From assembly GCA_949740745.1 (NCBI GenBank), contig CATJIW010000219.1, forward strand, positions 1-36,934: a DNA stretch of 36,934 nucleotides, written 5' to 3'. The translations under genes and the position numbers were made by a program. The notes under the pieces are model-generated. The model was not told where the DNA came from. It saw only the letters and a program-made list of their open reading frames with translations, and searched no databases. The number at the start of each line of letters is the position of its first letter. Position 1 is the stretch's first letter. The stretch is from an uncultured Lachnospiraceae bacterium. GTDB lineage: Bacteria; Bacillota; Clostridia; Lachnospirales; Lachnospiraceae. Positions 6,131 to 12,502 of this stretch are shown here, piece by piece.

Positions 6131-6147
6131 ATAAAAAATTTTTTATT
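6130..6147. promoter_or_regulatory. AT-rich palindrome upstream of the dapA1 promoter (candidate operator)
   Basis: AATAAAAAATTTTTTATT is a perfect 18-bp palindrome beginning at the last base of the aminotransferase gene, seven bases before the -35 box. A closely similar sequence lies downstream of the -10. It could also act as a weak hairpin end for the upstream transcript, but it has no GC in the stem. Confidence 0.4.
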
Positions 6148-6153
6148 TTTTTA

Positions 6154-6188: not shown

Positions 6189-6215
6189 AAATTAAAAATA
6201 AAAAATTTTTAATTT
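6189..6215. promoter_or_regulatory. AT-rich inverted repeat at the dapA1 transcription start (candidate operator)
   Basis: AAATTAAAAAT (6189-6199) is inverted perfectly as ATTTTTAATTT (6205-6215). The core AATAAAAAATTTTT is shared with the palindrome at 6130. The site covers the expected +1, a position typical of a repressor. Base composition makes chance palindromes more likely here, hence the limited confidence. Confidence 0.4.
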
Positions 6216-6259: not shown

Positions 6260-7171
6260 ATGGAAGTCAACAAAAATCTGAAAAAGGGCTATGGCATTAC
6301 GCCTGCGGCGAGGACCATCTGGAATGCAGACGAGACCTACAATAAGAAGGGGATGGAAGCGTACCTGACCTGGCTGCTGGATAATGGGGCCCAGTCCCTG
6401 TCGATCGTAGGATCCACCGGCGAGAACATGGCTATGAATGAGGAAACGCAGAAGGAGGTGCTTGGGCATGTGGCCAGCTTTATTGACGGCCAGGTCCCGC
6501 TGATCGGAGGAACGGGAAAATACGATACCTGCACGACTCTGGAACTGAGCAGGTTTGCGGAGAATGCCGGATACGATGCGCTGCTGGTGCTGCTTCCTTT
6601 TTATTACACTCCCCATAAGACGGCGGTGCTGCAGCACTACCGGAATCTGAGAAAAGAACTGAGCGTGCAGATGTATATTTATAACAATCCCTGGTTTGCG
6701 GGATACGAGCTGAATACCCCTGAGGTTCAGGAACTGATCGAGGACGGTACCATTCAGGGAATTAAGGCGGCGCATGGCGATCCCAACCGGGTTCACGATC
6801 TTAAGTATTACATGGGAGACAAAATTACGGTATTTTACGGACATGATTACTGCGGCCTGGAAGCTTACTGCGCAGGTGCAGACGGCTGGCTGTCAGGGCT
6901 TCCCGCAATCCTCCCGAAACAGTGCCGGGCCATTCAGGATGCTGTGGAGGCGAAGGATCTGGAAGCTGCCAGGAAAGCTCAGAACAACATTATTCCGTTC
7001 CTGAATTATTTCCTGTATGACAAGAAAAACGGTGTCCCTCACTGGCTGGAGATCTGCAACTATACTTTGACGGCCCAGGGTCTGAACGTGGGACTTCCCA
7101 GACGGCCTGCGGGAGATCTGGACGAGGCCAACAAAAAGAAAATTGAGAAACTGCTGGCAGATATGGATTAA
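6260..7171 (+). CDS. DapA-family (dihydrodipicolinate synthase / N-acetylneuraminate lyase) class I aldolase or dehydratase
   Basis: TIM-barrel enzyme (303 aa) of the pyruvate-type Schiff-base family. Visible motifs are GSTGENMAM at 51-59 (oxo-acid carboxylate loop), Tyr141 in YIYNNP, and the Schiff-base lysine K169 in QGIKAAHGD. A true lysine-biosynthesis DapA is unlikely: the gene sits with amino acid uptake and transamination genes, and there are three divergent members in 7 kb. A pyruvate aldolase or 2-oxo acid dehydratase role is inferred. The start at 6260 has AAAGGAG 8-14 bases upstream. It has its own promoter with flanking palindromes and ends at a strong terminator. Confidence 0.88.
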   Translation: MEVNKNLKKGYGITPAARTIWNADETYNKKGMEAYLTWLLDNGAQSLSIVGSTGENMAMNEETQKEVLGHVASFIDGQVPLIGGTGKYDTCTTLELSRFAENAGYDALLVLLPFYYTPHKTAVLQHYRNLRKELSVQMYIYNNPWFAGYELNTPEVQELIEDGTIQGIKAAHGDPNRVHDLKYYMGDKITVFYGHDYCGLEAYCAGADGWLSGLPAILPKQCRAIQDAVEAKDLEAARKAQNNIIPFLNYFLYDKKNGVPHWLEICNYTLTAQGLNVGLPRRPAGDLDEANKKKIEKLLADMD

Positions 7172-7336: not shown

Positions 7337-8521
7337 CTAATTCTGCAGAATTCTTGCGACGCCGGTTTCCCTGGCGGCCTTTGCTACGGCGGCGGCCACG
7401 GCTTTTCCTACCCTGGGATCGAAAGCCCTGGGAATGATGTAGTCTGCCGACAGCTCCTCGTCGGAGATCAGACCGGCCAGGGCGTAGGCGGCGGCAAGCT
7501 TCATTTCGTCATTGATGTCGCTGGCACGTACGTCGAAGGCGCCCCGGAACACACCGGGGAAAGCCAGCACGTTGTTGATCTGGTTGGGAAAATCGCTCCT
7601 GCCGGTGGAGACTACCCTGGCGCCGCCGGCTTTTGCGTCATCCGGGAAGATTTCGGGGGTCGGGTTCGCACAGGCAAATACCACGGCATCCCGGTTCATG
7701 GTCTTTACCATGTCCGTTGTGACCACGCCGGGGGCGCTTACGCCGATGAACACATCTGCGCCTTCCAGCAGGTCGGCCAGGCTTCCGGCCTTCTTATCCA
7801 GATTGGTGACCCTGGCCATCTCGTTCTTGATGGCGTTCATGCCTTCCTTCCGGCCCTCGTAAATGGCGCCGTGCCGGTCGCAGAGGGTGATATTCCGGAT
7901 GCCGTCTTTTAAAAGGAGACGGGCGATGGAGACGGCGGCGGCTCCTGCTCCGTTCATGATTACCTTAATGTCTTCTTTCTTTTTGTTCACGACCCGGAGT
8001 GCGTTGGTAAGCCCGGCCAGAGTGATGATGGCCGTACCGTGCTGATCGTCGTGGAAAATCGGAATGTCGCATTTTTCTTTTAATTTTTTCTCGATTTCAA
8101 AACAGCGGGGGGCGGAAATGTCCTCCAGATTGACCCCGCCGAAGGAGCCGGAGATCAGGTAGATGGTGTTTACGATTTCGTCCACATCCTTGCTCTTGAT
8201 GCAGAGCGGGAAGGCGTCCACGTCTCCGAATGCCTTAAACAGCACGCATTTTCCCTCCATGACCGGCATGCCGGCTTCCGGGCCGATATCGCCGAGGCCC
8301 AAAACGGCTGTTCCGTCGGTCACCACCAGGCACATGTTGTGGCGGCGGGTCAGATCATAGCTTTTTTCTATATCCTTCTGAATTTCCAGACAGGGTTCCG
8401 CCACGCCGGGGGTATAGGCCAGAGACAGGTCGTCCTTTGTCTTCACCGGAACCGAAGCGATTACTTCGATTTTACCTTTCCATTCGCCGTGAAGGCGCAG
8501 AGACTCTTTTGCGTAATCCAT
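7337..8521 (-). CDS. Malic enzyme, NAD(P)-dependent, short bacterial type
   Basis: Oxidative decarboxylation of malate to pyruvate and CO2 (394 aa, the usual length for bacterial malic enzymes lacking the C-terminal phosphotransacetylase-like domain). Motifs: LAYTPGVAEPC near 34-44 with the catalytic tyrosine, GDIGPEAGMPVMEGK with the catalytic lysine region, FKAFGDVDAFP, the divalent-metal segment HDDQHGTA, the Rossmann loop MNGAGAAAVSIARLLL, and FACANPTPEI. The ATG at 8521 has AGGAGG-like AAGGAGGATC just upstream. It is transcribed alone from a consensus promoter carrying a palindrome related to the GntR operators. Its location among pyruvate-producing lyases suggests it links pyruvate and C4 acids. 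Confidence 0.94.
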   Translation of the reverse strand: MDYAKESLRLHGEWKGKIEVIASVPVKTKDDLSLAYTPGVAEPCLEIQKDIEKSYDLTRRHNMCLVVTDGTAVLGLGDIGPEAGMPVMEGKCVLFKAFGDVDAFPLCIKSKDVDEIVNTIYLISGSFGGVNLEDISAPRCFEIEKKLKEKCDIPIFHDDQHGTAIITLAGLTNALRVVNKKKEDIKVIMNGAGAAAVSIARLLLKDGIRNITLCDRHGAIYEGRKEGMNAIKNEMARVTNLDKKAGSLADLLEGADVFIGVSAPGVVTTDMVKTMNRDAVVFACANPTPEIFPDDAKAGGARVVSTGRSDFPNQINNVLAFPGVFRGAFDVRASDINDEMKLAAAYALAGLISDEELSADYIIPRAFDPRVGKAVAAAVAKAARETGVARILQN

Positions 8522-8556
8522 AAGAAGATCCTCCTTGAAATAGAGTTGATATCATA

Positions 8557-8570
8557 TTGTCTGGTGCCAA
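8557..8570. promoter_or_regulatory. Candidate GntR/FadR-type operator at the malic enzyme promoter
   Basis: TTGTCTGGTGCCAA is a quasi-palindrome with TTG and CAA ends, touching the -10 of the malic enzyme promoter and covering the expected +1. It matches the TTGTATGATGTCA operator at 11581 at 10 of 13 positions and the palindrome at 8700 at 10 of 14. Confidence 0.45.
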
Positions 8571-8598
8571 TGATAAAAGATGAAATCATTTTTGTCAA
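8570..8598 (-). promoter_or_regulatory. Sigma-A promoter of the malic enzyme gene
   Basis: On the minus strand, TTGACA (8598-8593), a 17-bp spacer and TATCAT (8575-8570). Predicted start lies about 40 bases upstream of the ATG. Confidence 0.75.
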
Positions 8599-8699
8599 TC
8601 GGAAATAGTTTGACTTTTAAGGATTAAAAAATTCTGTGCAGAAAAAATTTTCGATGTCTGTCTGGCAGTAATTTCACAAATTCCGGCGGATATGGGAGA

Positions 8700-8713
8700 T
8701 TGACTCCTGTCAA
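8700..8713. promoter_or_regulatory. Palindrome over the -35 of the first GntR gene (candidate autoregulatory site)
   Basis: TTGACTCCTGTCAA: inverted TTGAC/GTCAA with a 4-base centre, overlapping the -35 box. It shares TTGnCTnnTGnCAA with the malic enzyme site at 8557. Confidence 0.4.
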
Positions 8714-8728
8714 AGGGTAAGTTATAAT
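8700..8728 (+). promoter_or_regulatory. Sigma-A promoter of the first GntR gene
   Basis: TTGACT (8700-8705), 17-bp spacer, TATAAT (8723-8728). It is divergent from the malic enzyme promoter. Confidence 0.75.
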
Positions 8729-8776
8729 TATTAGTATTATATCTTAAGTCTTGAAAGGATCTCACAGGGAAAGCAT

Positions 8777-9472
8777 ATGAAAGAGATACAGCGGATATCG
8801 ATTACGGACGCAGTTGTGGAAAGCATGAAGGAATTAATTGAATCGGGAGAGTATGAGGCAGGGCAGAAGCTTCCTACGGAAGCGAAGCTTTGCGAGATGC
8901 TTAAAGTAAGCCGCACCAGTGTGAGAGAAGCCTTTCGGGTACTTCAGGCCTTGGGATATGTGGTTATCAAAGCCGGCAAGGGAGCCTTTGTGGCGGAAAA
9001 AAAGCCGGAGCAGAGGGAAAAGGATCCCTGGTATGAAGCGGATAACGTCCAATTTTCGGATTTCATGGAGGTTCGCTGTGCAGTAGAGCCCCTGGGGGTC
9101 CGTCTGGCCGTGGAGAGGGCGTCGGAAAAGCAGATTGCGGAGCTTTCTGAAATCCATGCTTCCTTTGTGGAAGCAAATACGGGACACGATATGGCGAAGC
9201 TGATTATGCTGGACGAGCTGTTTCATACGAAAATCATGTCCTGTACCAAAAATCCTCTGCTGATCAATATTAACAAACAGCTTCTGGACAGCTTCCGGGT
9301 ATACCGGGGGGAATCGTTCATGAATACGGAAGTATATGGAAATGCCGTGATCCCCCATGAACGGATTTTGGAATGCTTTAAAAACCATGATGCAGAGCAG
9401 GCGGTGCTGGAAATGCAGCGCCATCTGGAGATTACCGGTGAGGATATGCGGCATTTACATAAAATGAAGTGA
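8777..9472 (+). CDS. GntR-family transcriptional regulator, FadR subfamily (FCD domain), GntR1
   Basis: DNA-binding regulator of 231 aa. The N-terminal winged helix-turn-helix spans about residues 8-75, with the recognition segment SRTSVREAF at 45-53 and the wing around KAGKGAFV. The C-terminal helical FCD domain (about 85-225) has the DELFHTKIM motif and a later PHERI...EMQRHLEI pattern, the Asp/His set that binds a metal and an organic-acid ligand in this family. It is a close paralogue of the gene at 10821, identical at most recognition-helix positions, so the two probably bind related sequences. Likely targets are itself, the divergent malic enzyme gene and perhaps module 1. It converges on the second DapA-family gene across a shared terminator. 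Confidence 0.93.
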   Translation: MKEIQRISITDAVVESMKELIESGEYEAGQKLPTEAKLCEMLKVSRTSVREAFRVLQALGYVVIKAGKGAFVAEKKPEQREKDPWYEADNVQFSDFMEVRCAVEPLGVRLAVERASEKQIAELSEIHASFVEANTGHDMAKLIMLDELFHTKIMSCTKNPLLININKQLLDSFRVYRGESFMNTEVYGNAVIPHERILECFKNHDAEQAVLEMQRHLEITGEDMRHLHKMK

Positions 9473-9547: not shown

Positions 9548-10468
9548 TTACAGCTTGCCCTGCTTTTTCAGAATGCCGAGAGTGACTTCCATTTCCGCAT
9601 CGGTGGCAGGGGCAAGGGGAGACCTTGCCGGCCCAAGCTTTACGCCCGTAACGGCTTCGATTGCGGGACGCAGGATCGAGTTGGGAAGGATTCTTCCATT
9701 TTGGCCGGTGCTCTTGCAGAATTCATACATGGGTACGAAAAGCTCCTTTGCCTTTTCATTTTCACCCTTTGCAAAGGCATCGAACATGGCGCGGATCTCA
9801 TGACCATAGATGTGAGCGCCGCCGCTGACAATGCCCATGGCGCCCTGTACGATGGTGGGAAGCAGCATCACGTCATCGCCGTTATAGAGGGCGAAATCCG
9901 GATCCACATCCTTTGTCGCCAGATAGAAATCGGTGATCTGGGTGGGATTCACGCCGGCTTCGTCTTTTACGCCCACAATATTTTTAATGGCCGCCAGCTT
10001 TCCGACAGTCTCTGCTTCCATATTGATGCCGACAAAGATCGGGATGTTGTACAGCAGGATGTCAGCCTTTGTACTTTCGGCAACGGCCTTGAAATGGCTG
10101 TATACGCCTTCCTGGGTAGGCTTGTTATAGAAGGGGCATACGATCAGGCAGAGCTCGATGCCGCATTCTTCTGCTTTTTTCGTCAGAGCGATGGTTTCCT
10201 TTGTGGAAGCGCAGCCGGTCCCGGCGATTACGGGCTTCCTTCCGGCAGCGGCCCTGACGGCAGTTTCAAATAATCTGGCTCTCTCGTCAAAGGAAAGCAG
10301 GGAAGCTTCGCCGGTGGTTCCCGTTACGATCAGAGAATCGCAGACATCTTTCTCAATGACATAATTGATCAGTTCTTCATATTTGTCGTAATCGACATTT
10401 TCATTCTCGTCATAGGGTGTGATCAGAGGAAGCAGAATTCTTCCGTATTTTTTTACAACAGGATTCAT
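9548..10468 (-). CDS. DapA-family class I aldolase or dehydratase, second copy
   Basis: Schiff-base TIM-barrel enzyme of 306 aa. Motifs: GTTGEASLLS at 50-59 (the most DapA-like of the three), Tyr140 in LLYNIP, and the lysine K168 in VGVKDEAG. The DHDPS-like catalytic environment is complete, but no other lysine-pathway genes are nearby, so function as a pyruvate aldolase or dehydratase is inferred. The track start at 10489 is TTG; the ATG at 10468 has AAGGAA nine bases upstream and gives a family-like N-terminus (MNPVVKKYGRILLPLITPYD). It is transcribed divergently from gntR2 from a promoter with an operator at +1, through a leader that contains repeat copy D. Confidence 0.88.
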   Translation of the reverse strand: MNPVVKKYGRILLPLITPYDENENVDYDKYEELINYVIEKDVCDSLIVTGTTGEASLLSFDERARLFETAVRAAAGRKPVIAGTGCASTKETIALTKKAEECGIELCLIVCPFYNKPTQEGVYSHFKAVAESTKADILLYNIPIFVGINMEAETVGKLAAIKNIVGVKDEAGVNPTQITDFYLATKDVDPDFALYNGDDVMLLPTIVQGAMGIVSGGAHIYGHEIRAMFDAFAKGENEKAKELFVPMYEFCKSTGQNGRILPNSILRPAIEAVTGVKLGPARSPLAPATDAEMEVTLGILKKQGKL

Positions 10469-10489
10469 GGTTATTGGTTCCTTTCTCAA

Positions 10490-10583: not shown

Positions 10584-10615
10584 ACAGATTATATATGATT
10601 GTGTGCCCTCGATAA

Positions 10616-10632
10616 TTGTATGATGTCGTATA
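10616..10632. promoter_or_regulatory. GntR2 candidate operator O1 (second DapA-family promoter)
   Basis: TTGTATGATGTCGTATA begins the same way as the sites at 10739 and 11581 and sits at the expected start point of the minus-strand promoter. A further half-site, CGTATGATA, continues into the -10 box. Confidence 0.65.
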
Positions 10633-10737: not shown

Positions 10738-10738
10738 A

Positions 10739-10754
10739 TTGTATGATGACATAA
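10739..10754. promoter_or_regulatory. GntR2 candidate operator O2 (gntR2 promoter)
   Basis: TTGTATGATGACATAA covers the transcription start of gntR2, with the TATGA-NN-TCATA-like dyad expected for a dimeric GntR protein (here TATGATGACATA). The position implies autorepression. Confidence 0.65.
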
Positions 10755-10820: not shown

Positions 10821-11555
10821 ATGAGAGAAATTCAAAAGATATCCATTACAAATATGGTTGCGGAGAATATTCGGGAACTGATCGAGACAGAACAGTATAT
10901 TCCGGGGCAGAAGCTGCCGACGGAAGCAGGATTTTGCCAGATGTGGGGAGTCAGCCGTACCAGCGTCCGGGAGGCGCTGCGGATTCTCCAGGCATTAGGA
11001 TGGGTGGACATCAGACCGGGAAAAGGGTCGTTTGTCCCGGACCGGCCTTTTCCGCCAAAATCGCAGAAAAACTGGTATGATTCAGAGAATGCACAGTTTT
11101 CGGATTTCATGGAGGTGCGCTTTGCCATTGAGCCGCTGGCGGTCCGTCTGTCCGTGAAACGTGCTGAGCCGAAGGAGGTTGCGGAGCTTTTCGAGATTCA
11201 CCAGTCTTTTATTCGCGCAAATGAAGCTCACGACCTGACAAAAATGATTATGCTGGATGAGCTCTTCCATACGAAGATTATGTCTTATAGTAAAAATCCT
11301 TTGTTAATCAATATCAATAAGCAGCTGCTGAACAGCTTTCGTATTTATCGGGGGGAGTCTTTCACCGACAGCTGCGTATATCATAACGCAGTGCAGCCTC
11401 ACGAACAGATCCTGCAATGCTTTTATGTAAAGGATGCGGAAAAAGCGGTGCTGGAAATGCAGCGCCACCTGGAGATTACGGAGGCCGATATGAGGCAGAT
11501 TCACGGAAATCAGGGGGAGAAGAAAAAATTTTCGGGAATAGTTGACAAAATCTGA
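10821..11555 (+). CDS. GntR-family transcriptional regulator, FadR subfamily (FCD domain), GntR2
   Basis: Regulator of 244 aa. The winged helix-turn-helix includes SRTSVREAL at 45-53 and the wing RPGKGSFVPD. The FCD domain has DELFHTKIM and PHEQI...EMQRHLEI, predicted to bind a metal and a small carboxylate effector, possibly a substrate or product of the neighbouring lyases. It is the close paralogue of the gene at 8777. Three copies of one operator-like sequence lie on its own promoter and on the promoters of the DapA-family genes either side, so it probably controls the divergent lyase, itself, and the downstream lyase-transporter-aminotransferase operon. Its last codons contain the -35 of the next promoter. 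A tail of about ten lysine-rich residues extends beyond GntR1. Confidence 0.94.
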   Translation: MREIQKISITNMVAENIRELIETEQYIPGQKLPTEAGFCQMWGVSRTSVREALRILQALGWVDIRPGKGSFVPDRPFPPKSQKNWYDSENAQFSDFMEVRFAIEPLAVRLSVKRAEPKEVAELFEIHQSFIRANEAHDLTKMIMLDELFHTKIMSYSKNPLLININKQLLNSFRIYRGESFTDSCVYHNAVQPHEQILQCFYVKDAEKAVLEMQRHLEITEADMRQIHGNQGEKKKFSGIVDKI

Positions 11556-11570: not shown

Positions 11571-11580
11571 TGAGATATGA

Positions 11581-11598
11581 TTGTATGATGTCATATAA
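11581..11598. promoter_or_regulatory. GntR2 candidate operator O3 (module 2 promoter)
   Basis: TTGTATGATGTCATATAA contains the dyad TATGA-TG-TCATA and lies just downstream of the predicted +1, where bound repressor would block initiation or early elongation. Confidence 0.68.
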
Positions 11599-11626: not shown

Positions 11627-12502
11627 ATGTACAGCAAGAAGTTGGAAGGAATCATTCCGCCTATTGTTACACCCTTTGATGAACATGGAAATATTGCCGG
11701 AAAATTGATGGAGAAGGAGATGAAGCTGGCAATAGATTCCGGAGTACATGGCCTGAGTGTCAGTGGAAGTACCGGAGAAGGGCCGACGCTGCGGGATGAG
11801 GAATTAAAAGAGCTCATTTCCATTGCAAAGGATTTTGTAAAGGAGGATCAGCCAATTGTATGCGGGATCATGAGGACCTGCACGAGGGATGCGGTAAAAG
11901 CCGGACTGGCGGCAAAGGAAGCCGGTGCGGATGCCCTGATGGTTACCCCCACCGCTTACAATGTTCTGGTGCCGGATGAAGACGGTATGTTTGATTTTTA
12001 CAATACGATCTCCAAAGAGTGTCAGATGCCCGTCATTATCTACAATGTGATTCCTCAGAACACGGTTACCCCCGGTTTATTCAAACGGCTGGTGGAGGGA
12101 ACGGAGTTTGTACGGGGAATCAAGCAGAGCGTAGGAGGCGTTCCTGCCCTGTATGCCATGAAGATGATGTGCGGGGACAAGGCCCAAATTTTTGCGGCCA
12201 CGGACGACATGCTCTATACCTGCTATGATCTGGGGGCTGACGGGGCGATTTCTGCGATCCTTTCGGTTTTTCCGAAACTGTGTGTGGAAATGTGGGAATG
12301 TTCCCAAAATGGGCAGAAGGAACGTGCCCTGGAAATCCAGAACCGGCTGTATTACCGCTGGCAGTGCATTGCGGGAAACCAGTTCCCGATCCGCTTAAAG
12401 TATGCGCTGAAGGTCATGGGCAGGGATGCCGGCTTCTGCCGCAGTCCGATCACTCATTTGTCGGAAGAGGAGAAACGTCAGATCGAAAAAGCCTTTGCCT
12501 GA
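11627..12502 (+). CDS. DapA-family class I aldolase or dehydratase, third copy
   Basis: Schiff-base TIM-barrel enzyme of 291 aa. GSTGEGPTL at 47-55, Tyr139 in IIYNVIP and the lysine K165 in RGIKQSVGG are all present. VTPTAYN replaces the usual VTPYYN, so the substrate pocket differs from biosynthetic DapA. It is the first gene of the module 2 operon, 21 bases before the binding-protein gene, which ties it directly to what that transporter imports. The ATG has a GGAGGG site at 11615-11620. It is about as divergent from the other two DapA-family genes here as from the family at large, so this is probably not a recent tandem duplication. Confidence 0.88.
   Translation: MYSKKLEGIIPPIVTPFDEHGNIAGKLMEKEMKLAIDSGVHGLSVSGSTGEGPTLRDEELKELISIAKDFVKEDQPIVCGIMRTCTRDAVKAGLAAKEAGADALMVTPTAYNVLVPDEDGMFDFYNTISKECQMPVIIYNVIPQNTVTPGLFKRLVEGTEFVRGIKQSVGGVPALYAMKMMCGDKAQIFAATDDMLYTCYDLGADGAISAILSVFPKLCVEMWECSQNGQKERALEIQNRLYYRWQCIAGNQFPIRLKYALKVMGRDAGFCRSPITHLSEEEKRQIEKAFA

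Follow-up and report, generated by a model that had tools for sequence, protein, structure and literature searches.

As reported by Suvorova et al. (2015, PMC4494728), regulators of the FadR subfamily combine a GntR HTH with an FCD domain and act on local targets through operators placed near promoters. Their consensus is given there as TKGT/ACMA, GT and AC being 2-3 nt apart. Other described systems are close to the locus presented here in different respects. LutR of Bacillus subtilis is a GntR-family repressor of hydroxy-acid metabolism genes with an operator downstream of the promoter (PMC11734750). In Corynebacterium glutamicum, the paralogous pair GntR1/GntR2 resides in one genome and has overlapping function (PMC2230225). 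NanR (NCBIfam NF003011) binds GGTATA repeats (PMC8012715).

The window analysed here is an entire contig of 36,934 bases, belonging to a Lachnospiraceae assembly of 2.9 Mb (G000) that is ~80% complete. It encodes two GntR-FCD regulators, GntR1 and GntR2, in a region of DapA-superfamily genes, branched-chain-amino-acid-type ABC transporters, aminotransferases and a malic enzyme gene; a gap of 255 bp separates the latter from gntR1 (Table 1). Both regulators scored above the Pfam gathering score for GntR (68.3 and 65.1 bits) and FCD (87.3 and 79.5 bits). The operator described below, ATTGTMTGATGTCA(T), has a full-dyad spacing of 10 nt and falls outside the 2-3 nt that is typical, though not universal, in the FadR subfamily. 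Membership nevertheless stands by domain, and atypical operators have precedent (NanR, BioR). NanR was the best-scoring family for both proteins, but the scores of 109.3 and 92.4 bits were far under its curated cut-off of 260 bits. The recognition helix, VSRTSVREA, is identical in GntR1 and GntR2 and contains the SRTSVREA string already pointed out in a preliminary description of this DNA. Overall, the two proteins share 65% identity, and in the tree they form separate clades within one family.

Table 1. Positions of the genes, promoter elements and operator-like sites discussed in the text.
Feature	Position	Strand	Remarks
Malic enzyme	7337..8521	-	394 aa; Pfam malic + Malic_M; divergent from gntR1
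Extended malic operator region	8549..8570	-	From alignment of four malic promoters
Degenerate family operator ATTGTCTGGTGCCA	8556..8569	+	Consensus ATTGTMTGATGTCA; two core substitutions; PWM from relatives
Malic -10 box TATCAT	8570..8575	-	Operator abuts, no gap (0 nt)
Malic -35 box TTGACA	8593..8598	-	17-nt spacer
TTGACTCCTGTCAA	8700..8713	+	gntR1 promoter; -35 box TTGACT + conserved CCTGTCAA
gntR1 -10 box TATAAT	8723..8728	+	17-nt spacer from TTGACT
Second conserved block TTAGTATTATATCTTAA	8731..8747	+	Expected gntR1 transcription start; kept in G005 and G010; missed by the preliminary description
gntR1, FCD-type GntR regulator	8777..9472	+	231 aa; Pfam GntR + FCD; tree clade with G005 and G004 proteins
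DapA-like gene	9548-10489	-	Family operator in front
Family operator ATTGTATGATGTCG	10615..10628	+	8 nt downstream of -10 of DapA-like gene 9548-10489
Family operator ATTGTATGATGACA	10738..10751	+	Abuts gntR2 -10 directly; same site in G005
gntR2, FCD-type GntR regulator	10821..11555	+	244 aa; Pfam GntR + FCD
Family operator ATTGTATGATGTCA	11580..11593	+	9 nt downstream of -10 of DapA-like gene 11627-12502
DapA-like gene	11627-12502		Family operator in front

Clusters encoding FCD-type GntR regulators repeatedly carried the operator ATTGTMTGATGTCA(T) in different Lachnospiraceae. Most homologous clusters of relatives contained 2-5 good matches, and the reversed control pattern had none in any locus scanned. 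We must note that the seed was picked by eye from upstream regions, which makes this a curated motif, not a blind de novo one; independent support comes from the reversed pattern, which had zero counts, and from G151, G261 and G387, genomes added afterwards in which the motif recurred. In the consensus of 27 relatives' sites, the core A-T-T-G-T-M-T-G-A-T-G-T-C was nearly invariant and the right half weaker. In other genera the site is a full dyad, e.g. TTGTATGTTGTCATACAA. Two more genera (loci L145 and L146, from G151 and G261) carried about three operators each, in the A form (TTGTATG), around a regulator that is 68-69% identical. A literature string search returned no paper with ATTGTATGATGTCA, nor one with the 18-mer together with GntR; RegPrecise lay outside that search.

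Within the window, the three top PWM sites, at 11580, 10615 and 10738, reached 22-25 bits, and they were the only matches in the whole genome at ≤1 mismatch. At four window promoters, that of the malic enzyme included, the operator started 0-9 nt after the -10 box, a position that fits repression through polymerase blockage. We propose that this clade of FCD-type GntR regulators acts as repressors in Lachnospiraceae, binding ATTGTMTGATGTCA(T) as a half-strong dyad just downstream of -10, where the bound dimer would block RNA polymerase. A different element, AAAATAAAAAATTTTT, was present as two inverted exact copies, 6134-6149 (-) and 6195-6210 (+), flanking the promoter of a DapA-like gene at 6260. 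In G005, the same DapA-like gene has a similar element, and AAATTTAAAATTTTTTATTTTTTATT lay upstream of the malic enzyme genes of G007 and G008; these are probably operators of some other regulator.

The preliminary description placed diverged versions of one operator at the malic enzyme and gntR1 promoters. Its strings lie where it put them, TTGTCTGGTGCCAA at 8557-8570 and TTGACTCCTGTCAA at 8700-8713, the former abutting the malic -10 box and the latter beginning at the gntR1 -35 box. Both predicted promoters, TTGACA-17-TATCAT and TTGACT-17-TATAAT, are of textbook sigma-A type. The string common to both sites, TTGNCTNNTGNCAA, was found at no other place in the 2.9 Mb assembly (two matches in all), and the reversed control pattern gave counts of 1 and 2. 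However, a consensus of two strings from one intergenic region fits both by construction, so this count is no evidence of relatedness; relatives alone separated an inherited operator from a promoter element. The shared string is not a shared palindrome either, since the 14-mers are weak dyads, in which 4/7 and 5/7 of the pairs are complementary, and the family dyad is centred 2 bp away from the assumed point; that reading was dropped.

The malic half of the claim held. As had been proposed, TTGTNTGNTGNCA links the malic site to the GntR2 sites, with three window matches (8557, 10739 and 11581) against 0.10 expected. With the 14-bp model, the malic site ranked fourth in the window at 11.3-12.9 bits, and a score this high would arise by chance somewhere in the 255-bp gap with a probability of ~0.01. 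An operator occupied the orthologous position, just downstream of -10, in G001, G004 and G006, all of the same genus. In the alignment of the four species' malic promoters, the sense-strand columns CAnCAGACAATAyGAyrTC were kept, and beyond them, on the far side, lies a box resembling TGAYRTC that reads TGATATC in the window. The G004 promoter matches the operator perfectly and has flanks resembling those of the window, which differs at two core bases. The orthologous promoters scored 24.2 (G004), 19.7 (G006) and 17.8 bits (G001) versus 12.7 in the window, although they belong to the PWM training sites and their scores are thus somewhat favoured. Relatives' sites as a whole spanned 16.9-25 bits (minimum 16.9-20.1), and the window site lies outside this range. 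No family operator preceded the examined malic genes of G005, G010 and G002. On these comparisons, the malic site is a real operator position, an inherited copy of a putative repressor site. The two core substitutions, together with a score under that of every relative's site, indicate that it is weakened or decaying.

Which regulator such a site would have served is suggested by a third protein, GntR3. This regulator is present in G001, G004 and G006, with a family operator in each gntR3 promoter region. A search with the G004 protein in G000, G005 and G010 retrieved only GntR1/GntR2 and distant homologues of ≤37% identity; G005 encodes a distant GntR (33-37%) of unsure placement in the tree. 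For G000, an assembly gap is a possible alternative to true loss. Core position 6 was C in 11/12 sites of the GntR3 genomes versus 3/23 elsewhere, by counts entered by hand, and the window malic site (TTGTCTG) is among those three. The Fisher p of ~1e-5 is inflated by kinship, as the three genomes are close relatives and the association is phylogenetically confounded. GntR1 is thus not the obvious owner of the malic site, because GntR3 and the C variant, which the malic site also carries, are both features of the relatives that keep the operator. Most simply, a former GntR3 site would have been inherited and have lost two core bases, probably following the loss of GntR3, and today it would be a relic or a weak site of GntR1/GntR2. 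In G004 (L035:12935-16946), we also observed the operator in the interval that separates GntR3 from a divergently oriented malate/L-lactate dehydrogenase (Ldh_2) gene. Malic enzyme there has a divergent neighbour whose product shows weak Lar_N/DUF362 similarity; this neighbourhood suggests a hydroxy-acid pathway.

The same observations bear on the proposal that GntR1 owns both sites and that they moved away from the GntR2 operator once the regulators had duplicated. Malic enzyme and gntR1 form a divergent pair, and in divergons of the FadR subfamily each operon often has one site (PMC4494728). The gntR1 element, moreover, resembles the operator to the degree given below and is kept in G005 and G010. 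However, the malic operator is found in G001 and G006, neither of which has a GntR1-clade member in the tree, and it is missing before the malic genes examined in G005 and G010. The gntR1 element is in turn absent at the G004 gene, despite a GntR1 that is 82% identical to that of the window and whose gene lies closely behind an upstream gene. The two sites also differ in placement relative to the promoter. As for a drift of GntR1 and GntR2 in operator preference, the identical helices speak against it, and the C variant tracks the presence of GntR3. We regard the proposal as improbable.

Identical helices would rather imply similar specificity and hence cross-talk, which the preliminary description had also considered. 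GntR1 and GntR2 may thus be redundant or cross-talking regulators of one shared specificity, with both binding at the three strong sites and only weakly at the malic site. The conserved helix and overall similarity of the two proteins point this way, and the functionally equivalent GntR1/GntR2 paralogues of C. glutamicum provide a precedent (PMC2230225). Nevertheless, proteins of 60-70% identity may have distinct motifs (PMC4494728), and the blocks in the gntR1 promoter are poor family operators (7.9 and 1.7 bits), so that autoregulation would need something else. This reading, possible though held tentatively, is compatible with decay of an inherited malic operator; it concerns which protein acts.

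The gntR1 site did not follow the malic one. It starts at the -35 box and not just downstream of -10 as the other window sites do, and its 6.6-7.9 bits lie outside the score range of relatives. In the 8699-8712 register, 11/14 positions match the family operator, with three near-invariant ones broken. Chance would give such a likeness with a probability of 0.003 if the register is fixed, 0.011 if any position within 20 bp of a -35 box is allowed and 0.067 over the 255-bp gap. The 11/14 match may reflect a shared origin, but the similarity is marginal and the geometry different, and this part of the earlier claim was not supported.

The element is conserved in two relatives all the same: it is identical in G005 and has one change in G010, while G004 lacks it. 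The CCTGTCAA part is unchanged in G005 although the adjoining spacer has diverged, and reads CTTGTCAA in G010, which makes it probably functional. A block at the presumed start site, TTAGTATTRTAYCTTAA (8731-8747), is conserved as well. Use of both in autoregulation is plausible; the first covers the -35 box and the second the start site. We found no exact copy of the element beyond the gntR1 promoter in G000, G005 or G010 (one per genome). A regulon around it was rejected, as the numbers of matches at ≤2 mismatches were close to those of the reversed control; G005 was the exception (43 vs 24). The start-site block was likewise discarded as a canonical operator, with a PWM score of ≤1.7 and no copies elsewhere in the clusters. 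We also note that the G010 regulator (L041:9156-9845) resembles GntR1 of G004 in the type of small gene upstream and has a gntR1-type promoter, but that by coding sequence it falls among the GntR2-like proteins of G004 and G006; gene conversion between paralogues is possible.

The palindrome at the gntR1 promoter could instead be a -35 box whose palindromic partner is unrelated, or the site of another regulator (e.g. MarR-, TetR- or FNR/HcpR-like, TTGAC-N4-GTCAA). In 397 Lachnospiraceae genomes, -35 boxes of this form (≤2 mismatches) preceded a TATAAT-like box at ~60 places, and the downstream ORFs recovered from 20 loci included no GntR homologue. Scattered as it is before non-GntR genes, the form is not diagnostic alone. 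Its excess over the reversed control was not taken as a GntR signal, since real promoters alone suffice and the checked loci had no GntR gene. TTGACnnnnGTCAA is a published HcpR/FNR-type consensus (PMC1274295). Yet TTGACNNNNGTCAA occurs at just two sites in this genome, where several, at hcp-type genes, would be expected of such an operator; this gives no sign of an HcpR regulon, and an HcpR/FNR site seemed doubtful on this count. An unrelated palindrome would also leave the persistence of the element with this regulator in three species unexplained. We consider it a somewhat unlikely origin.

Taken together, the reading that we hold with moderate confidence is that an inherited malic operator has decayed in this genome, and that the gntR1 element is separate and not demonstrably the same operator. 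The weak malic site may still be bound by GntR1 and GntR2. A bolder scheme, which we rate as very unlikely, is that recently multiplied FCD-GntR repressors are splitting one operator, TTGTCTG in the GntR3 genomes, TTGTATG in the GntR2 genomes and the -35-overlapping TTGACTCYTGTCAA for GntR1, with the helix unchanged; specificity would then be set outside the recognition helix. The change at the malic site is regulatory evolution of a fairly ordinary sort: at an orthologous promoter, one operator is weakening where a regulator has apparently been lost. Moreover, ATTGTMTGATGTCA(T) provides a concrete candidate operator for an uncharacterised FCD-GntR clade that, in Lachnospiraceae, is tied to DapA-like aldolases, amino-acid-type transporters and malic enzyme.

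In terms of known systems, both the regulators and the layout belong to a familiar type. With the FadR subfamily (PMC4494728), this locus shares the domain architecture, the TTGT box, the operators near promoters and the local targets; the operator departs from the published spacing, as its full dyad, TTGTATGATGTCATACAA, has 10 nt from GT to AC, with a strong left and a weak right half. The likeness to NanR extends to the DapA-superfamily genes nearby, but not to the repeats it binds. LutR agrees in its kind of genes and in operator placement, whereas its operator, TCATC-N1-GATGA, is another string with another symmetry (PMC11734750). The C. glutamicum regulators also form a paralogous pair, but their operators follow TNGTNNNACNA and serve other genes in another lineage (PMC2230225).
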